This document shows positions 32,307 through 39,051 of a DNA stretch of 64,000 nucleotides, piece by piece. Under the pieces are notes generated by a model, which worked only from the letters and a program-made list of their open reading frames with translations, was not told where the DNA came from and did no database searches. Every line of letters begins with the position of its first letter. Within the stretch, counting starts at the first letter, position 1. The stretch lies in NCBI GenBank assembly GCA_012517735.1, contig JAAYUK010000075.1, positions 1-64,000 on the forward strand, written 5' to 3'. A program made the translations under genes and the position numbers. Source of the stretch: Nitrospiraceae bacterium. Its GTDB lineage: Bacteria; Nitrospirota; Thermodesulfovibrionia; Thermodesulfovibrionales; Dissulfurispiraceae.

Positions 32307-32600
32307 TTATTCGCGGAACGGACTGAGCGGCTGCGACGGGACCCCGCATGCCTGAGCCCCGGCATCGGCAGCAGCCTGATCCATCAATGCTTCGTATTCC
32401 CGAATGAGTCTGATGGATTCCTGTGCAGCGGCTTCATCGATCTTTCTAAGCGCAAACCCCGCATGCACCAGCACATAGTCGCCGACCGACACTTCATCGG
32501 GAACAAGGATAATACTGACATCGCGACGCGCGCCCATGATATCGACCGTCGCCAGAATGTTGTCGATGCTGATTATCTTTGAAGGGACTGCGAGGCACAT
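32307..32600 (-). CDS. hypC: Hydrogenase maturation chaperone HypC/HybG
   Basis: 97 aa starting MCLAVPSKI at 32600 (AGGAG upstream). Cys2, needed for carrying the Fe(CN)2CO group, is present. It hands the Fe group from HypD to the immature large subunit. The C-terminus is extended beyond the usual ~80 residues (Ala/Gln-rich). It overlaps the end of the protease gene by 28 bases. Last gene of the hydrogenase locus. Confidence 0.94.
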   Translation of the reverse strand: MCLAVPSKIISIDNILATVDIMGARRDVSIILVPDEVSVGDYVLVHAGFALRKIDEAAAQESIRLIREYEALMDQAAADAGAQACGVPSQPLSPFRE

Positions 32601-33067
32601 TGGATATTCCACTCCTGGAGTTTTGCGATAACACGGTCAATCATCGTCTCTATTTTATCACTGACCCGCGGAGAGAGTTCAAGACCGAAACTGAATTCGC
32701 AGTCCTGCGGCTGTATACCGACAAGGCAGATTTTGGGGGGAAGCACCCCCGTCAGTTTCGCAACGGAAAGCAGATCCGCAAGGCCGACATGGTGAGCCGA
32801 GAGTTTGACGAAGAGTACGGCAGGAATTTCGTCGTCTTCCAGCACGCCGATATATCCGGGTTCCTTGCCGAAATTGACGGCATCCACAAACAATACCTTG
32901 TCGAACCGTTCAATAATGGGAAGCAGGTCGAGGCCCAGCGTCCCGCCATCCAGAATTTCGATCTCCGGAGAAAACGAGAATCGTTCACGGATGGTCTCGA
33001 CGACATGAACCCCGACCCGTTCGTCCTGCAGAAGGACATTCCCTATACCAATCAGCGCAACAGACAA
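32573..33067 (-). CDS. hyaD: Hydrogenase maturation endopeptidase (HyaD/HybD family)
   Basis: 164 aa; start codon TTG right after the cytochrome b stop. Metal/substrate ligands are visible: Glu in GNVLLQDERVGVHVVE, Asp in FVDAVNFG and His in LSAHHVGL. It removes the C-terminal peptide of the large subunit after nickel insertion; that subunit does carry a 15-residue extension after its last His. Intact, so the operon expects a full-length large subunit. Confidence 0.93.
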   Translation of the reverse strand: MSVALIGIGNVLLQDERVGVHVVETIRERFSFSPEIEILDGGTLGLDLLPIIERFDKVLFVDAVNFGKEPGYIGVLEDDEIPAVLFVKLSAHHVGLADLLSVAKLTGVLPPKICLVGIQPQDCEFSFGLELSPRVSDKIETMIDRVIAKLQEWNIQCASQSLQR

Positions 33068-33730
33068 TTAGTGGTGATCTCCAAAAAATTTGTACCCGCT
33101 GAAAATCGAACTGATGAGACCGTTCCGCTCAATTATATCATTATGCCATGAAATATAGACATGGATAATGACGAAAATCCAGATGCACCACATGAAGACA
33201 TGATGCAGCATGCGGATCGTCCCGGCAGAAAGGATGTCCAGCATCCAGCCGCCGCCGATGGCGTATATGATACCGCCGCCATTGGCCATATGCAGCAGGG
33301 CAAAGCCCGATGCCACCTCAAAGAGGAAAAGCATGAAGACCACGATATACGAAAGACCGGCCATGCCGGTATGCCCCGGGGAATGGGGAATCTCATCTTC
33401 CATGAAACCGTAAAACAGCGCGCATTGCACCGTATTCTGCACCCGCCCCCATGTGGTGGGGATAAACTGGTTCAGCCGGGCATACTGATTGCCGACAAAC
33501 CACCAGTAGACACGGAACAGAACGCTGGCGGTGAAAATATAGCCGGCAACAAAATGAATGAATCGCATCATCGCCATCGGAAGCACGTCGTCTCCGGCAG
33601 GTATGCCGAGAAACGGCGCACCGATGTAGAATCCGGTCACCGAAAGGGTCAGGATGCTGAGGGCATTGACCCAGTGGGTAATACGAACCGGCAATTCCCA
33701 GATGTATTCCCTGTGTGTGGTAGTAGCCAT
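33068..33730 (-). CDS. hyaC: Ni/Fe-hydrogenase b-type cytochrome subunit
   Basis: 220 aa from the ATG at 33730 (GGGAGGCAGGT upstream). Four hydrophobic helices with haem-ligand histidines: ITHWVNALSIL, RFIHFVAGYIF and HHVFMWCIWIFVIIHVYISWH. It anchors the periplasmic hydrogenase and passes electrons from H2 to the quinone pool. Directly follows the large subunit gene. Confidence 0.94.
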   Translation of the reverse strand: MATTTHREYIWELPVRITHWVNALSILTLSVTGFYIGAPFLGIPAGDDVLPMAMMRFIHFVAGYIFTASVLFRVYWWFVGNQYARLNQFIPTTWGRVQNTVQCALFYGFMEDEIPHSPGHTGMAGLSYIVVFMLFLFEVASGFALLHMANGGGIIYAIGGGWMLDILSAGTIRMLHHVFMWCIWIFVIIHVYISWHNDIIERNGLISSIFSGYKFFGDHH

Positions 33731-33741
33731 ACCTGCCTCCC

Positions 33742-35460
33742 TTACCGCACCCGAACCTGAACGATCTCCTTGCCGTTGGCATCGACCGCATGAATCGCAC
33801 AGGCCATGCACGGATCAAACGAATGGATCGTCCTGATGATTTCGAGCGGCTGATCCGGTTTGGCGATCGGCGTTCCGATCAGCGCCTCTTCGTCCGGACC
33901 GCGCTGTCCCTTGGCGTCGCGCGGTGATGCATTCACGCCGCCCGGCACCACGCACTGATAGTTTGCAATCTGCCGGTCCTTGATCACGATCCAGTGGCAG
34001 AGCGCTCCGCGCGGAGCTTCATGATAGCCATAGCCCTTTGCCTCTGCAGGCCAGGTGGACGGTTCCCACTTGTCGGTGTTGGCAACACGGTAGTCGCCTT
34101 TTTTGATATTTGCCGCGAGCTCCATGATGTACGACGGGAGCTTGTCAGCGATCAGTTTTGTTTCAATACCCCGGGCAGCCGTGCGTCCGAGTGTCGAGAA
34201 GAGTGCCGCAGGACCGACGCCCAGTTTGCCGAGGACAAAGTCGATGAGTCCCTTGGCTTCCTTGTGCCCGGCAGCATATGCAATAACCATGCGGGCAAGC
34301 GGACCGACCTCGACCGGTACGCCGTCATACCGGATCGCCTTGACCCAGCTGTATTTGTTTTTGCCGTCGGTGTTCAGTTCCTTGTAGGTTTCCTTCGGAC
34401 CGGTATAGTTCGGGGTGGTTTCGCCGTCCCACGGATGAAGCGGCTTGTCATCGCCGCCGGCATACTTGTACCACGAACGGGAAACCTCTTCAGTCATCTT
34501 CTTGTGATCGACCTTCTCGATCTTTGTCAGGTCCTTGCCTTTGATGAATCCGGCCGGCAGCCAGACATTGGTCGTGTTCGGCAGATTGTCGTTCTGGAAT
34601 TCACCGTAGGAAAGGAAGTTTCCGACACCCGCACCGATGCCCGCCCAATCCTTATAAAATGAAGCAATCGCCAGAAGATCGGGAATGTAAACCTTGTCGA
34701 CAAATGCCTGTGCACGGTCCGCATACTCAAGCAGCTGGGCAATCGTGTTGGCATTGATCGCATTCTGGCTGTTCGGATCGATCGGCGTTGCCATGCCGCC
34801 AACCAGATAGGTCTGCGGATGCGGGTTCTTCGCGCCAAGCAGCGCCATCGCCTTGATGAAGTCTCTCTGCCAGTCAAGCGCTTCGAGATAGTGCGCAACA
34901 GCCATGAGGTTTGCTTCCGGCGGCAGTTTATAGGCCGGGTGCCCCCAGTAGCCATTGGCGAAAATACCGAGCTGGCCGCTTTCGACGAACGCCTTCAGTT
35001 TGCCGGCGACTGCCTTGAAATAACTGGCTGATGCGTTGTTCGGCCAGTCGGAGATCGACGAGGCAAGCGCCGCCGTCTTTGCCGGATCGGCCTTCAGCGC
35101 GCTGACCACATCCACCCAGTCGAGCGCGTGGAGATGATAAAAATGAATGACATGGTCATGGATAGCCTGGATTGCGTTGATAATGTTCCGGAGAATTCTC
35201 GCATTGTCCGGAATGGTAATGTTCAATGCATGTTCAACAGCTCTCACGGAGCTGGTGGAGTGTACGGTCGTTCAGACCCCGCAGATGCGGGAGACGAACG
35301 TCCAGGCATCGCGCGGATCGCGGCCTTTCAGGATCGTCTCGATGCCACGCCACATGGTGCCCGCAGCCCAGGCGTCGGTGATCTTCCCGCCCTCGACCTG
35401 CGCTTCGATTCTCAGGTGACCTTCTATTCTGGTAATCGGGTCAACTACAATTTTTGCCAT
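33742..35460 (-). CDS. hyaB: [NiFe] hydrogenase large subunit with in-frame TGA at an active-site Cys (candidate selenoprotein)
   Basis: 572 codons if the TGA at 35272-35274 is read through. The first 62 residues ([20 protein letters not shown]...) end at RICGV, then TGA, then [18 protein letters not shown] in the same frame. The family motif here is RxCGxCxxxH, so the TGA replaces exactly the second Cys, a ligand bridging Ni and Fe. The C-terminal motif DPCMACAIH keeps both Cys and is followed by a 15-residue peptide for the protease. No other frameshift or stop is seen. Either selenocysteine is inserted (see the hairpin at 35238-35254) or a single TGC/TGT-to-TGA change has broken the gene. 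Known [NiFeSe] enzymes carry Sec in the C-terminal motif, not here. Confidence 0.85.
35238..35274 (-). promoter_or_regulatory. Candidate bacterial SECIS hairpin after the in-frame TGA
   Basis: On the - strand, 17 bases after the TGA, CAGCTC pairs with GAGCTG around the loop CGTGA (35244-35248). The stem is 6 bp, with two more pairs beyond one mismatch. The loop begins 23 bases after TGA and has a G in its first two positions. Bacterial SECIS elements typically have a small loop with such a G about 16-37 bases after the UGA. Fits by geometry only. Confidence 0.5.
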
Positions 35461-35521: not shown

Positions 35522-36607
35522 CTACTCGTGCCCTTCGTCCTCGCTCTTGCTGCACTCTTTGCGGCGCTTTGCCGCACGGATTGCGCCATGAGCCGCAACC
35601 GCCGCAGCGGTGGCAGCCGCAACGCCAAGACCGATCTTGTCGGCATTTGCCTGCCAGCCGACACCCGGAACCGCCTTCATGCGCTGATAGAACGGATAGG
35701 CAGCATCCCAGTTATCGGGAGTCGCGCATGCAATGCACGGATGCCCTGCCTGAACCGGCCAGCTCGTGCCTTCGTTCCAGCGGATGGTCGGGCAGTTCTG
35801 GAATGCCATCGGACCCTTGCAGCCCATTTCATACAGGCACCAGCCGAGACGGTGGCCCTGATCGCCCCACTGACGGACGAACTGGCCCTGATCGAAATGA
35901 GGACGGCGCTCGCAATTGTTGTGAATCAGCTTGCCGTAGGCAAAGAGCGGACGGCCGAGGCTGTCGAGCGCCGGCAGCGATCCGAACGTGAGGAAGTGAA
36001 CAACCACAGCAGTAAAGTTTTCGGGATTCATCGGGCAGCCCGGGATATTCAGCACCGTTCCGCCGATAATATCCCTGATGCCTTTCGCCTCGGTCGGATT
36101 CGGCTTTGCCGCCGGCACACCGCCGAAGCAGGCACAGTTACCGACCGCAATGTTTGCCATCGCACCTGCGGCAACCTCCTTGCAGGTGTCGATTGATTTC
36201 TTTCCACCCACAAAGCAATATATGCCTCCGTCCTTCGTCGGGACAGCGCCCTCGTATACGGCAATATACTTGCCTTTTTTCTTGGTGATAGTATCGTGCA
36301 GCGACTTTTCTGCTGCATGCCCCGACGGCGCCATGATGGTCTCGTGGTAATCCAGAGAAACAATATCAAGAATCACCTTGGCGATTGAGGGTTTGCTTGC
36401 CCTGAGCACCGATTCGGAATCACCGGTGCATTCCTGGAAATGCAGCCAAACGACTGATGGACGCTCTTTTTTCTCCAAAGCCTCCGCAATCTGCGGAACC
36501 ATGGAAGACGAGAGCCCGAGTGTTGCGGCGGTTGCCGAGCAGAACTTCAGGAAGTCCCTTCGGGTGACGCCGCGACTAAGAAGATGATGATAAATACTCC
36601 CCGCCAT
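35522..36607 (-). CDS. hyaA: [NiFe] hydrogenase small subunit (Tat-exported), with Asp at a proximal-cluster position
   Basis: 361 aa from the ATG at 36607 (GAGGAGGTG upstream). Twin-arginine signal TRRDFLKFCS. The proximal cluster motif reads ECTGDSES where most have CTGCSES, so one of four Cys ligands is Asp; the others are in GNCACFGG and IPGCPMNP. Medial and distal cluster residues are normal (HNNCERRPHF, GWCLYEMGCKGP, HPCIACATP). A C-terminal Ala-rich segment (GLGVAAATAAAVAAHGAI) may anchor it. A 3Cys/1Asp proximal cluster is known from actinobacterial-type [NiFe] hydrogenases. Confidence 0.93.
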   Translation of the reverse strand: MAGSIYHHLLSRGVTRRDFLKFCSATAATLGLSSSMVPQIAEALEKKERPSVVWLHFQECTGDSESVLRASKPSIAKVILDIVSLDYHETIMAPSGHAAEKSLHDTITKKKGKYIAVYEGAVPTKDGGIYCFVGGKKSIDTCKEVAAGAMANIAVGNCACFGGVPAAKPNPTEAKGIRDIIGGTVLNIPGCPMNPENFTAVVVHFLTFGSLPALDSLGRPLFAYGKLIHNNCERRPHFDQGQFVRQWGDQGHRLGWCLYEMGCKGPMAFQNCPTIRWNEGTSWPVQAGHPCIACATPDNWDAAYPFYQRMKAVPGVGWQANADKIGLGVAAATAAAVAAHGAIRAAKRRKECSKSEDEGHE

Positions 36608-36747: not shown

Positions 36748-39051
36748 TTATAAATGCTTGACAGTCTTGGCAAGAAGCCGGATTTGTCCCAGCGAAACAC
36801 AGGCATCGTTCTGGGGAAGAGCACGGTTGGTGACTACACAAAAACCATCCGCCGTCAATACCGTTTCTGCCTGCGACAGAAGATACGCATTCTGGAAAAC
36901 ACCCCCGCTCAGGGCAATCGTGCGGGTAGCCAACCTTGAAGCGAGCCGATGCGCCATTGCTCTGATGACATGGACTATCGTATTGTGAAATCTCAAAGAA
37001 ATCAAAGCATTAGATACCCCTTCGGAAAGATCCGCAACCACACTCCGGACCAGCGGTCCGAAATCGATGACCACCGGTGACGATTCATCCACAGCATACG
37101 GGTAGACGATTCCCGGATCATAGGACGCATCCAAAGGAAGGAGGCTCTCCAGGGCAATCGCCGCCTCCCCCTCATAGGTATTACTACTGCATGCACCGAT
37201 CAGTGCCGACAGTGCATCAAAATATCTTCCGGCACCGCAGGATACCGGCGAAAACTGGCGTACGGCTGCAAGATGCAGAATCTGCCGGAGCTGACGCTCT
37301 CCGTACCGGGAGAGAAAACCGACCTGATCCAGAATCTCCATGCAGTCGTTTGCTCCATATGTCATTTGCACCAGAGCAACCGAAATGCGCCAGCATTCGC
37401 GGATCGCCTGCTCTCCTCCGGGCAGCGCAAGATAGGAAAAATGACCGTATCGCTCAAATTCCGTCCCACGGCAGCAGAGGAACTCGCTTCCCCATATGGT
37501 TCCGTCTGTACCATAGCCGGTGCCGTCAAGGGCAATGCCGACAACCGGCCCATCGAGAGCATGCTCGGCCATGACCGATGCAATATGCGCATGATGGTGC
37601 TGGACGCCAAGGCACGTCGCCCCGGAAGCCTCGCACTGCCGGAGCGCCCACTGGCTGGCGAGATACCCCGGATGCAGATCGTACGCGATTGCGCGCGGCT
37701 CGGCCCGGTAAACCTGCCTCAGATTTGCGAGCGCTTCCTCAAAGAACGAGAGCGTTTCATAATTCTCCATGTCGCCGATATGCTGGCTGACAATCGCATA
37801 GCGCCCTTTGGTGATCGCAAAGGTATTCTTCACCTCGCCGCCGGCTGCAAGAAGATCGGGAGCTTCCTCCCCAAGATCAATCGCCTCGGGAGCATACCCT
37901 CGGGCTCGCCGGATGAAACGGGGCGATCCATTGACCACCCTCACCACGGAATCATCGGCCCGCATGAAGATATCGCGATTATGCAGGAGGAATGCATCTG
38001 CAAGACCAGCCAGCCGCTCCCTTGCCTCATCGTTGTCAATAACGATCGGCTCTTCCGAAAGGTTTGCACTCGTCATCACCAGCACGCTGAAAGCGCGACT
38101 CCCGTTTTCGAACAGCAGATGATGAATCGGCGTATACGGCAGCATGAACCCAAAGGTTGCATTGCCCGGCGCCAAAGCAGCGGGAAGAGAGCACTCCGGT
38201 CGCTTTCTGAGCAGGACGATCGGCCGCCTCCGGTCGGTCAGTAACGCAGCCTCTTGGTCGGAAACGATACAGTGAGAGCGGATGTCATCCAATGCAGCGG
38301 TCATCAGCGCAAACGGCTTGTTTCTGCGCCGCTTGCGTTTCCTGAGCTCTTCCACCGCGGACGGATTCGTTGCATCGCAACACAGGTGGAATCCGCCGAG
38401 GCCTTTCACCGCAACGATTCCACCCGCCCTCAGCACGTCTCGCGCAGACGCAATCGGGTCTGCCTGCTCGGCAGAGGAGAATCCACCGGTCGATTCAAAC
38501 ACAACCTGAGGCCCGCAGACCGGACAGGCATTGGGCTGCGCATGAAAACGCCGGTTTCTCGGGTCATGATATTCCGCTGAGCACTGCCCGCAGAGGGGAA
38601 ACCGGGCCATAGTCGTGTTCGGCCGGTCATACGGAACACGTCTGGTAATCGTAAAACGGGGACCACAGTTCGTGCAGTTGATGAACGGATACCGGTAGCG
38701 GCGGTCATGGGGATCGCGCATCTCACGCAGACAATCGTCGCATACGGCGACATCAGGCGAAATATGGGTAAAGCTCCCCTCATCCCTGCTTTCCACGATC
38801 CGGAAAGCACCGTCTCCCTGCGGAGGAATATCGGCAACACTCAGGGAAAGAATCTGCGACAGCGGTGGCGCTTCACTGCGCAACGCCTCGACGAAGGCAT
38901 CACTCTTCAGCCCTTCAGCCTCGATCAGCACGCCCCGCGAAGTATTGGTCACATATCCGGCGATACCGAAACGCTCGGCAAGCGTGAAGACGAACGGACG
39001 GAAACCAACCCCCTGAACAATGCCGCTGATCTCGATGCGAAGGCGTTTCAT
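36748..39051 (-). CDS. hypF: Carbamoyltransferase HypF
   Basis: 767 aa, full length. Domains in order: acylphosphatase (residues 1-90, VQGVGFRPF), two zinc-finger pairs (CDDCLREM...CTNCGPR; CGQCSAEY...CPVCGP), YrdC-like (about 200-385, GGIVAVKGLGGFHLCCDA), and a Kae1-like domain with VQHHHAHIASVMAEH. It makes the thiocarboxamide on HypE from carbamoyl phosphate, the source of the cyanide ligands of the hydrogenase iron. It lies just upstream of the structural genes; HypA, B, D and E are not in the window. Confidence 0.96.
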   Translation of the reverse strand: MKRLRIEISGIVQGVGFRPFVFTLAERFGIAGYVTNTSRGVLIEAEGLKSDAFVEALRSEAPPLSQILSLSVADIPPQGDGAFRIVESRDEGSFTHISPDVAVCDDCLREMRDPHDRRYRYPFINCTNCGPRFTITRRVPYDRPNTTMARFPLCGQCSAEYHDPRNRRFHAQPNACPVCGPQVVFESTGGFSSAEQADPIASARDVLRAGGIVAVKGLGGFHLCCDATNPSAVEELRKRKRRRNKPFALMTAALDDIRSHCIVSDQEAALLTDRRRPIVLLRKRPECSLPAALAPGNATFGFMLPYTPIHHLLFENGSRAFSVLVMTSANLSEEPIVIDNDEARERLAGLADAFLLHNRDIFMRADDSVVRVVNGSPRFIRRARGYAPEAIDLGEEAPDLLAAGGEVKNTFAITKGRYAIVSQHIGDMENYETLSFFEEALANLRQVYRAEPRAIAYDLHPGYLASQWALRQCEASGATCLGVQHHHAHIASVMAEHALDGPVVGIALDGTGYGTDGTIWGSEFLCCRGTEFERYGHFSYLALPGGEQAIRECWRISVALVQMTYGANDCMEILDQVGFLSRYGERQLRQILHLAAVRQFSPVSCGAGRYFDALSALIGACSSNTYEGEAAIALESLLPLDASYDPGIVYPYAVDESSPVVIDFGPLVRSVVADLSEGVSNALISLRFHNTIVHVIRAMAHRLASRLATRTIALSGGVFQNAYLLSQAETVLTADGFCVVTNRALPQNDACVSLGQIRLLAKTVKHL

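Follow-up and report, generated by a model that had tools for sequence, protein, structure and literature searches.

In each CxxC pair of a [NiFe] hydrogenase, the first cysteine is a terminal ligand, whereas the second forms a bridge between Ni and Fe. Classical [NiFeSe] enzymes (HysA of Desulfovibrio and Desulfomicrobium; Vhu and Fru of methanogens) carry one selenocysteine (Sec) among the Ni ligands of the active site; it takes the place of the first Cys in L2, the C-terminal motif, and is a terminal ligand. A 2026 review of selenoproteomes gives the Sec of the hydrogenase alpha-subunit only as UxxC, lists the UxxU motif for other bacterial selenoproteins and relates the usual proposal that Sec protects against irreversible oxidation (PMC13188914); a 2025 review of maturation has Sec substituting for one Cys (PMC12134894). 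By engineering, each of the four Ni-ligating Cys of E. coli Hyd-1, bridging ones included, has been replaced by Sec, as stated in PMC11212049. The proximal cluster also varies: one of its Cys is replaced by Asn or Asp in group 1f (Roseiflexus, Geobacter, Frankia) and by Asn in group 2a, and group 1h has an Asp ligand (PMC5364354). The group 1h enzymes (C. necator HofKG), with a 3Cys:1Asp proximal cluster, have the L1 motif TSRICGICGDNH and lack a Tat signal.

We analysed a hydrogenase locus in a 64,000-nucleotide stretch of Nitrospirota DNA (the window). The locus resembles group 1f in having Asp for one proximal Cys, and the classical [NiFeSe] enzymes in having a predicted Sec among the Ni ligands; in contrast to the latter, the Sec of the window enzyme and its relatives would belong to L1, occupying either the bridging position alone or both positions. 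Unlike the engineered Hyd-1 variants, the L1 TGA is natural, conserved and often double. On the minus strand, the genes for the small subunit, large subunit, cytochrome b and protease follow in this order (Table 1). A Tat signal at the N terminus of the small subunit (start 36607) and a C-terminal membrane anchor, identified by profile match and motif, combine with the L1 and L2 motifs of the large subunit, the cytochrome b and the protease to give the features of a group 1 membrane-bound [NiFe] hydrogenase, L1 counting as such when TGA is taken as equivalent to Cys. We consider it highly probable that the locus encodes a 1f-like periplasmic hydrogenase with a proximal 3Cys/1Asp cluster and a Sec-containing L1 in its large subunit. 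The HypF-like gene lies directly upstream on the same strand, approximately 140 bases from the small subunit gene. An Rfam scan of the window returned a tRNA as its only match.

Table 1. Positions of the hydrogenase genes, motifs and the putative recoding element within the window.
Feature	Position	Strand	Evidence or remark
Hydrogenase small subunit, 361 aa	35522..36607	-	TIGR00391 459.8 bits, PF14720, PF01058; alignment to 1h2a_S
Twin-arginine signal region (TRRDFLK)	36473..36607	-	Small subunit
ECTGDSES motif	36410..36433	-	Asp63 in place of second proximal-cluster Cys
Asp63 codon GAT	36419-36421	-	Residue 63 of small subunit
Hydrogenase large subunit, 572 codons, one in-frame TGA	33742..35460	-	PF00374 757.9 bits
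TGC, Cys60, first L1 Cys; TGA in most relatives	35281..35283	-	Alignment
TGA, predicted selenocysteine 63, second L1 Cys	35272-35274	-	RICGV-TGA-TTVH
SECIS-like hairpin CAGCTC-CGTGA-GAGCTG, 3' of TGA	35237..35256	-	
L2 motif DPCMACAIH, ordinary Cys	33790..33816	-	Cys where classical [NiFeSe] enzymes have Sec
b-type cytochrome subunit, presumed to accept electrons on the quinone side	33068..33730	-	TIGR02125 157 bits, PF01292
Hydrogenase maturation endopeptidase (HycI/HyaD family)	32573..33067	-	PF01750 116 bits
HypF-like carbamoyltransferase, maturation gene	36748..39051	-	Read from translation alone

In-frame TGA codons in L1

Among solved structures, the large subunit matches best the Allochromatium vinosum hydrogenase (3MYR, 693 bits), which, unlike the window enzyme, has an all-Cys L1. 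We take the TGA of the window gene to occupy the Ni–Fe bridging position, and Cys60 of the large subunit the terminal Ni-ligand position. Because L2 is all Cys and the TGA lies in L1, the arrangement is not that of classical [NiFeSe] hydrogenases, and the scores of the large subunit against the NCBIfam NiFeSe models fall under their cut-offs (NF033181, 519 with 600 needed; NF045518, 381 with 780 needed).

L1 variants were coded as UU (TGA at both Cys), CU (second only), UC (first only) or CC (Cys–Cys). Of 80 relatives obtained by a genome scan, 54 were UU, three besides the window CU and 21 CC. Across 109 large-subunit frames, stop codons occurred only at the two L1 codons—two in 55 frames, one in 15 and none in 39. 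In 230 genomes of the class to which the window belongs, a census with a search pattern left open at both L1 codons recovered 136 motifs: 94 UU, 22 CU (the window type), 20 CC and no UC. At the level of the phylum, 72 of 395 Nitrospirota genomes contained the UU pattern, every one of them in the class of the window; the pattern was not found in the other Nitrospirota classes sampled, and a reversed-pattern control gave zero throughout the same 395 genomes. TGA at the second L1 Cys was also present in 26 of 346 genomes of a class reached from a Chloroflexota locus, mostly as UU. In all, L1 TGA, often doubled, occurs in more than 100 genomes of two phyla (Nitrospirota and Chloroflexota). No gene has TGA at the first Cys alone, which suggests either stronger selection on a bridging Sec or a recoding hairpin positioned for the second UGA. 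A second, Hyb-like clade (approximately 48% identity) has TGA at the same bridging Cys of L1, with eight CU and one UU among the sequences fetched (L185–L190, L201, L203 and L204).

Proximal cluster of the small subunit

Residue 63 of the small subunit falls in the column of the second CxxC Cys of the solved enzymes 1h2a and C. necator HoxK, and the same column holds Asp in a group 1h-like sequence (L134) and Asn in a Sulfurovum enzyme (L133). The first-pass annotation had correctly recognized that Asp replaces a proximal-cluster Cys within ECTGDSES, although it placed the motif at 36480–36560, about 60 bases upstream and within the Tat signal region. Among 88 clade members, position 63 is D in 58, N in 27 and C in 3, and it is the only variable cluster ligand: C60, C158 and C191, the remaining three proximal ligands, are invariant, as are H229, C232, C257, C263, C272, C291 and C294. 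A sequencing error, which the annotation had named, together with a tree placement in a subgroup with normal Cys, as the finding that would overturn its reading of the Asp, is excluded, because GAT is two bases away from TGT or TGC and the same Asp recurs in independent assemblies (for example, L009, L010, L011 and L012), Asp or Asn being present in 85 of the 88 relatives. The proximal Asp is a genuine and usual trait of the hydrogenase subgroup concerned; taken alone it is ordinary, as the trait has been published for groups 1f, 1h and 2a. Six Asn-type small subunits (L025, L048, L059, L067, L068 and L073) carry a further Cys next to the first proximal one (CCGN), and one Chloroflexota small subunit (L232) has CCGD.

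The co-occurrence of Asp and TGA in relatives, also raised in the first-pass annotation, fails as a rule. In clade A of the first set of sequences, Asp or Asn accompanies 53 of the 54 UU enzymes (D 31, N 22, C 1) and all seven CU enzymes (D 7), a pattern that would be expected had the Asp evolved as part of a selenium active-site design and been functionally coupled to Sec. The CC enzymes of that set, however, are likewise mostly D or N (D 20, N 5, C 7, with five outgroup references among those that have Cys), among them the Geobacter-type enzymes; the TGA enzymes of Chloroflexota have D, N or C at the proximal position, with Cys in several; and the Hyb-like TGA clade retains a normal four-Cys proximal cluster (CTGC). 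We therefore rejected the rule that Asp goes with TGA, regard functional coupling as improbable, and consider the proximal Asp and the L1 Sec, as read from these sequences, to be loosely linked. Since the Asp/Asn trait is common to the Cys–Cys Geobacter side, it probably precedes Sec.

Putative recoding hairpin and selenocysteine machinery

A hairpin with at least four Watson–Crick pairs follows the second TGA in 71 of 84 TGA genes, versus 0 of 29 Cys genes. Its loop is (C/G)GTG(A/C). In the first set, the Val codon that it contains is GTG in each of the 57 TGA genes; of the 21 Cys genes, just one has G at the third base. The arms covary (CCGCC/GCGGT, with one bulged base; CCAGC/GCTGT; TCTGC/GCAGT; TCGCC/GGCGT), and in the case of TCGCC/GGCGT even the encoded residue is different, with Gly replacing Ala. 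When distinct arms were shuffled, the observed pairing sum was reached in 0 of 10,000 trials, compared with 5,395 of 10,000 (that is, chance) for the Cys control. Kinship of the sequences inflates shuffle tests of this kind; the contrast with Cys genes and the recurrence of the hairpin in Chloroflexota are independent of kinship. The two-register stem test was devised post hoc, and its main safeguards are the Cys-gene control and the Chloroflexota sequences that were added later. RNAalifold found almost no consensus structure in the ungapped alignment, because the hairpin occurs in two registers that are one bulged base apart. Hairpin energies relative to synonymous randomization were modest (mean z of −1.29 for TGA genes and −0.74 for Cys genes); as these exceed chance only modestly, the case rests on covariation and on the contrast with Cys genes.

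Of the two Thr codons that follow the TGA, the second (35266–35268 in the window, minus strand) is ACG in 90 of 94 UU genes versus 4 of 22 CU genes (Fisher P = 8e-14), and from this bias an additional RNA element that serves the first UGA of UU genes seems likely. Pairing probabilities hint at a second hairpin around the second UGA, a candidate for this role, but this hairpin is not conserved in many Chloroflexota sequences. In double-TGA genes, one hairpin may have to serve both UGAs, 9 nt apart, a demand that counts against the recoding model. The Hyb-like clade has its own, different hairpin (ACGCACTG/CAGTGCGT) with up to eight pairs; this difference points to a separate gain or transfer of the TGA. 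We consider it likely that the Nitrospirota and Chloroflexota sequences represent a widespread [NiFe] class with a bridging L1 Sec, usually joined by a second, terminal Sec, that arose or was acquired in two clades with different hairpins.

The genome of the window encodes SelA (602 bits), SelB (335 bits; the gene is cut by a contig end) and SelD (331 bits; carrying a TGA of its own), as well as formate dehydrogenases that have TGA in the customary UH position. The 268 contigs of this assembly yielded no tRNA-Sec, the top match of the tRNA-Sec model being a tRNA-Ser; tRNA-Sec(UCA) is present in G001, a genome of the same genus, and in further relatives that were checked, and its absence here may reflect an assembly gap. 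The missing tRNA and the location of the TGA at Cys positions would also fit a reading of UGA as Cys or Trp by a special tRNA or suppressor, which would leave an ordinary four-Cys active site. This is nevertheless very unlikely given SelA, SelB, the Sec-type SelD and the TGA-containing formate dehydrogenases of the same genome, the tRNA-Sec of the congener and a hairpin specific to TGA genes, all of which favour Sec. The in-frame TGA almost certainly encodes selenocysteine.

Affiliation and proposed function

In a tree with few references, none of them labelled as 1f or 1e, the clade of the window enzyme lies next to enzymes of Geobacteraceae and Desulfuromonadales, from which we infer that the hydrogenase is 1f-like; its Geobacter-type relatives in the tree have a Cys–Cys L1, in contrast to the TGA at the second L1 Cys of the window enzyme. 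The first-pass annotation had likened the small subunit to the O2-insensitive actinobacterial type. The comparison is chemically apt: Asp ligation is known for group 1h (PMC5364354), and the Asp shares its column with the 1h-like L134. The likeness ends there: identity to L134 is only 28% for the small and 26% for the large subunit, L1 differs (RICGVUTTVH versus SRICGICGDNH), a Tat signal and a cytochrome b are present and the tree sides with Geobacter-type enzymes. We rejected assignment to group 1h, and a high-affinity, O2-insensitive enzyme of that group is exceedingly improbable. The TGA, which the annotation had also thought meaningful, is conserved class-wide at the second L1 Cys and does make the enzyme an unusual variant, whereas the Asp does not, as Asp/Asn was already published for group 1f (PMC5364354). 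In a single genome, a gene that had been broken could show just such a TGA within its catalytic motif, but a sequencing error or pseudogene mutation accompanied by a decayed cluster ligand has a negligible probability, as the same TGA occurs in dozens of independent assemblies and is conserved throughout the class, no frame has any other stop, all other metal ligands are invariant and the hairpin covaries.

From the computed gene structure, conservation, RNA covariation and Sec machinery, we infer Sec insertion, metal coordination and physiological effect as follows. The enzyme would be a group 1 [NiFe] hydrogenase, periplasmic and anchored in the membrane, of a Nitrospirota bacterium. Its proximal 4Fe–4S cluster would be coordinated by three Cys and, as an old trait of the subgroup, one Asp. 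The L1 UGA would be decoded as Sec through SelA, SelB, SelD and tRNA-Sec, directed by the hairpin just downstream, which would place a selenolate at the Ni–Fe bridge and, in most relatives, another Sec next to it as a terminal ligand of Ni. Judging by the operon and the family, the enzyme would oxidize H2 (uptake) and send the electrons by way of its three clusters (proximal, medial, distal) to cytochrome b and on to quinone. The Se ligand, which is softer, has a lower pKa and is reversibly oxidized, and the harder Asp ligand probably tune both redox centres and, by analogy, probably help against irreversible oxidation.

What is new here is the predicted arrangement of Sec in L1, the Asp alone being already known; the open-access literature that we searched contained no previous account of a Sec in this motif. 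The arrangement is chemically credible, because Sec has been put at each of the four Ni-ligating positions of E. coli Hyd-1 (PMC11212049). If Sec is inserted, the enzymes would be natural counterparts of those engineered replacements, with two at once in most relatives, and a bridging Sec would depart from the picture in reviews, where an active site has a single Sec and only in L2 (PMC13188914, PMC12134894). Close UU, CU and CC relatives, together with a Cys–Cys paralogue in the same genome, form a comparison set for chalcogen ligands that could address H2 catalysis, O2 tolerance and H2 production per ligand. In many genomes of Nitrospirota and Chloroflexota, automated annotation may split this uptake hydrogenase or discard it.

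The paralogue is a second large subunit (locus L107; contig C225, 2127–3839) that is 75% identical and has a Cys–Cys L1. Genes for a cytochrome b and then a YeeE/YedE-like transporter lie downstream, and rhodanese-like genes upstream. No small-subunit gene adjoins it, and the genome as a whole yielded just a single small subunit; the L107 protein may be a Cys isoform that uses the small subunit of the window, perhaps under regulation by selenium.
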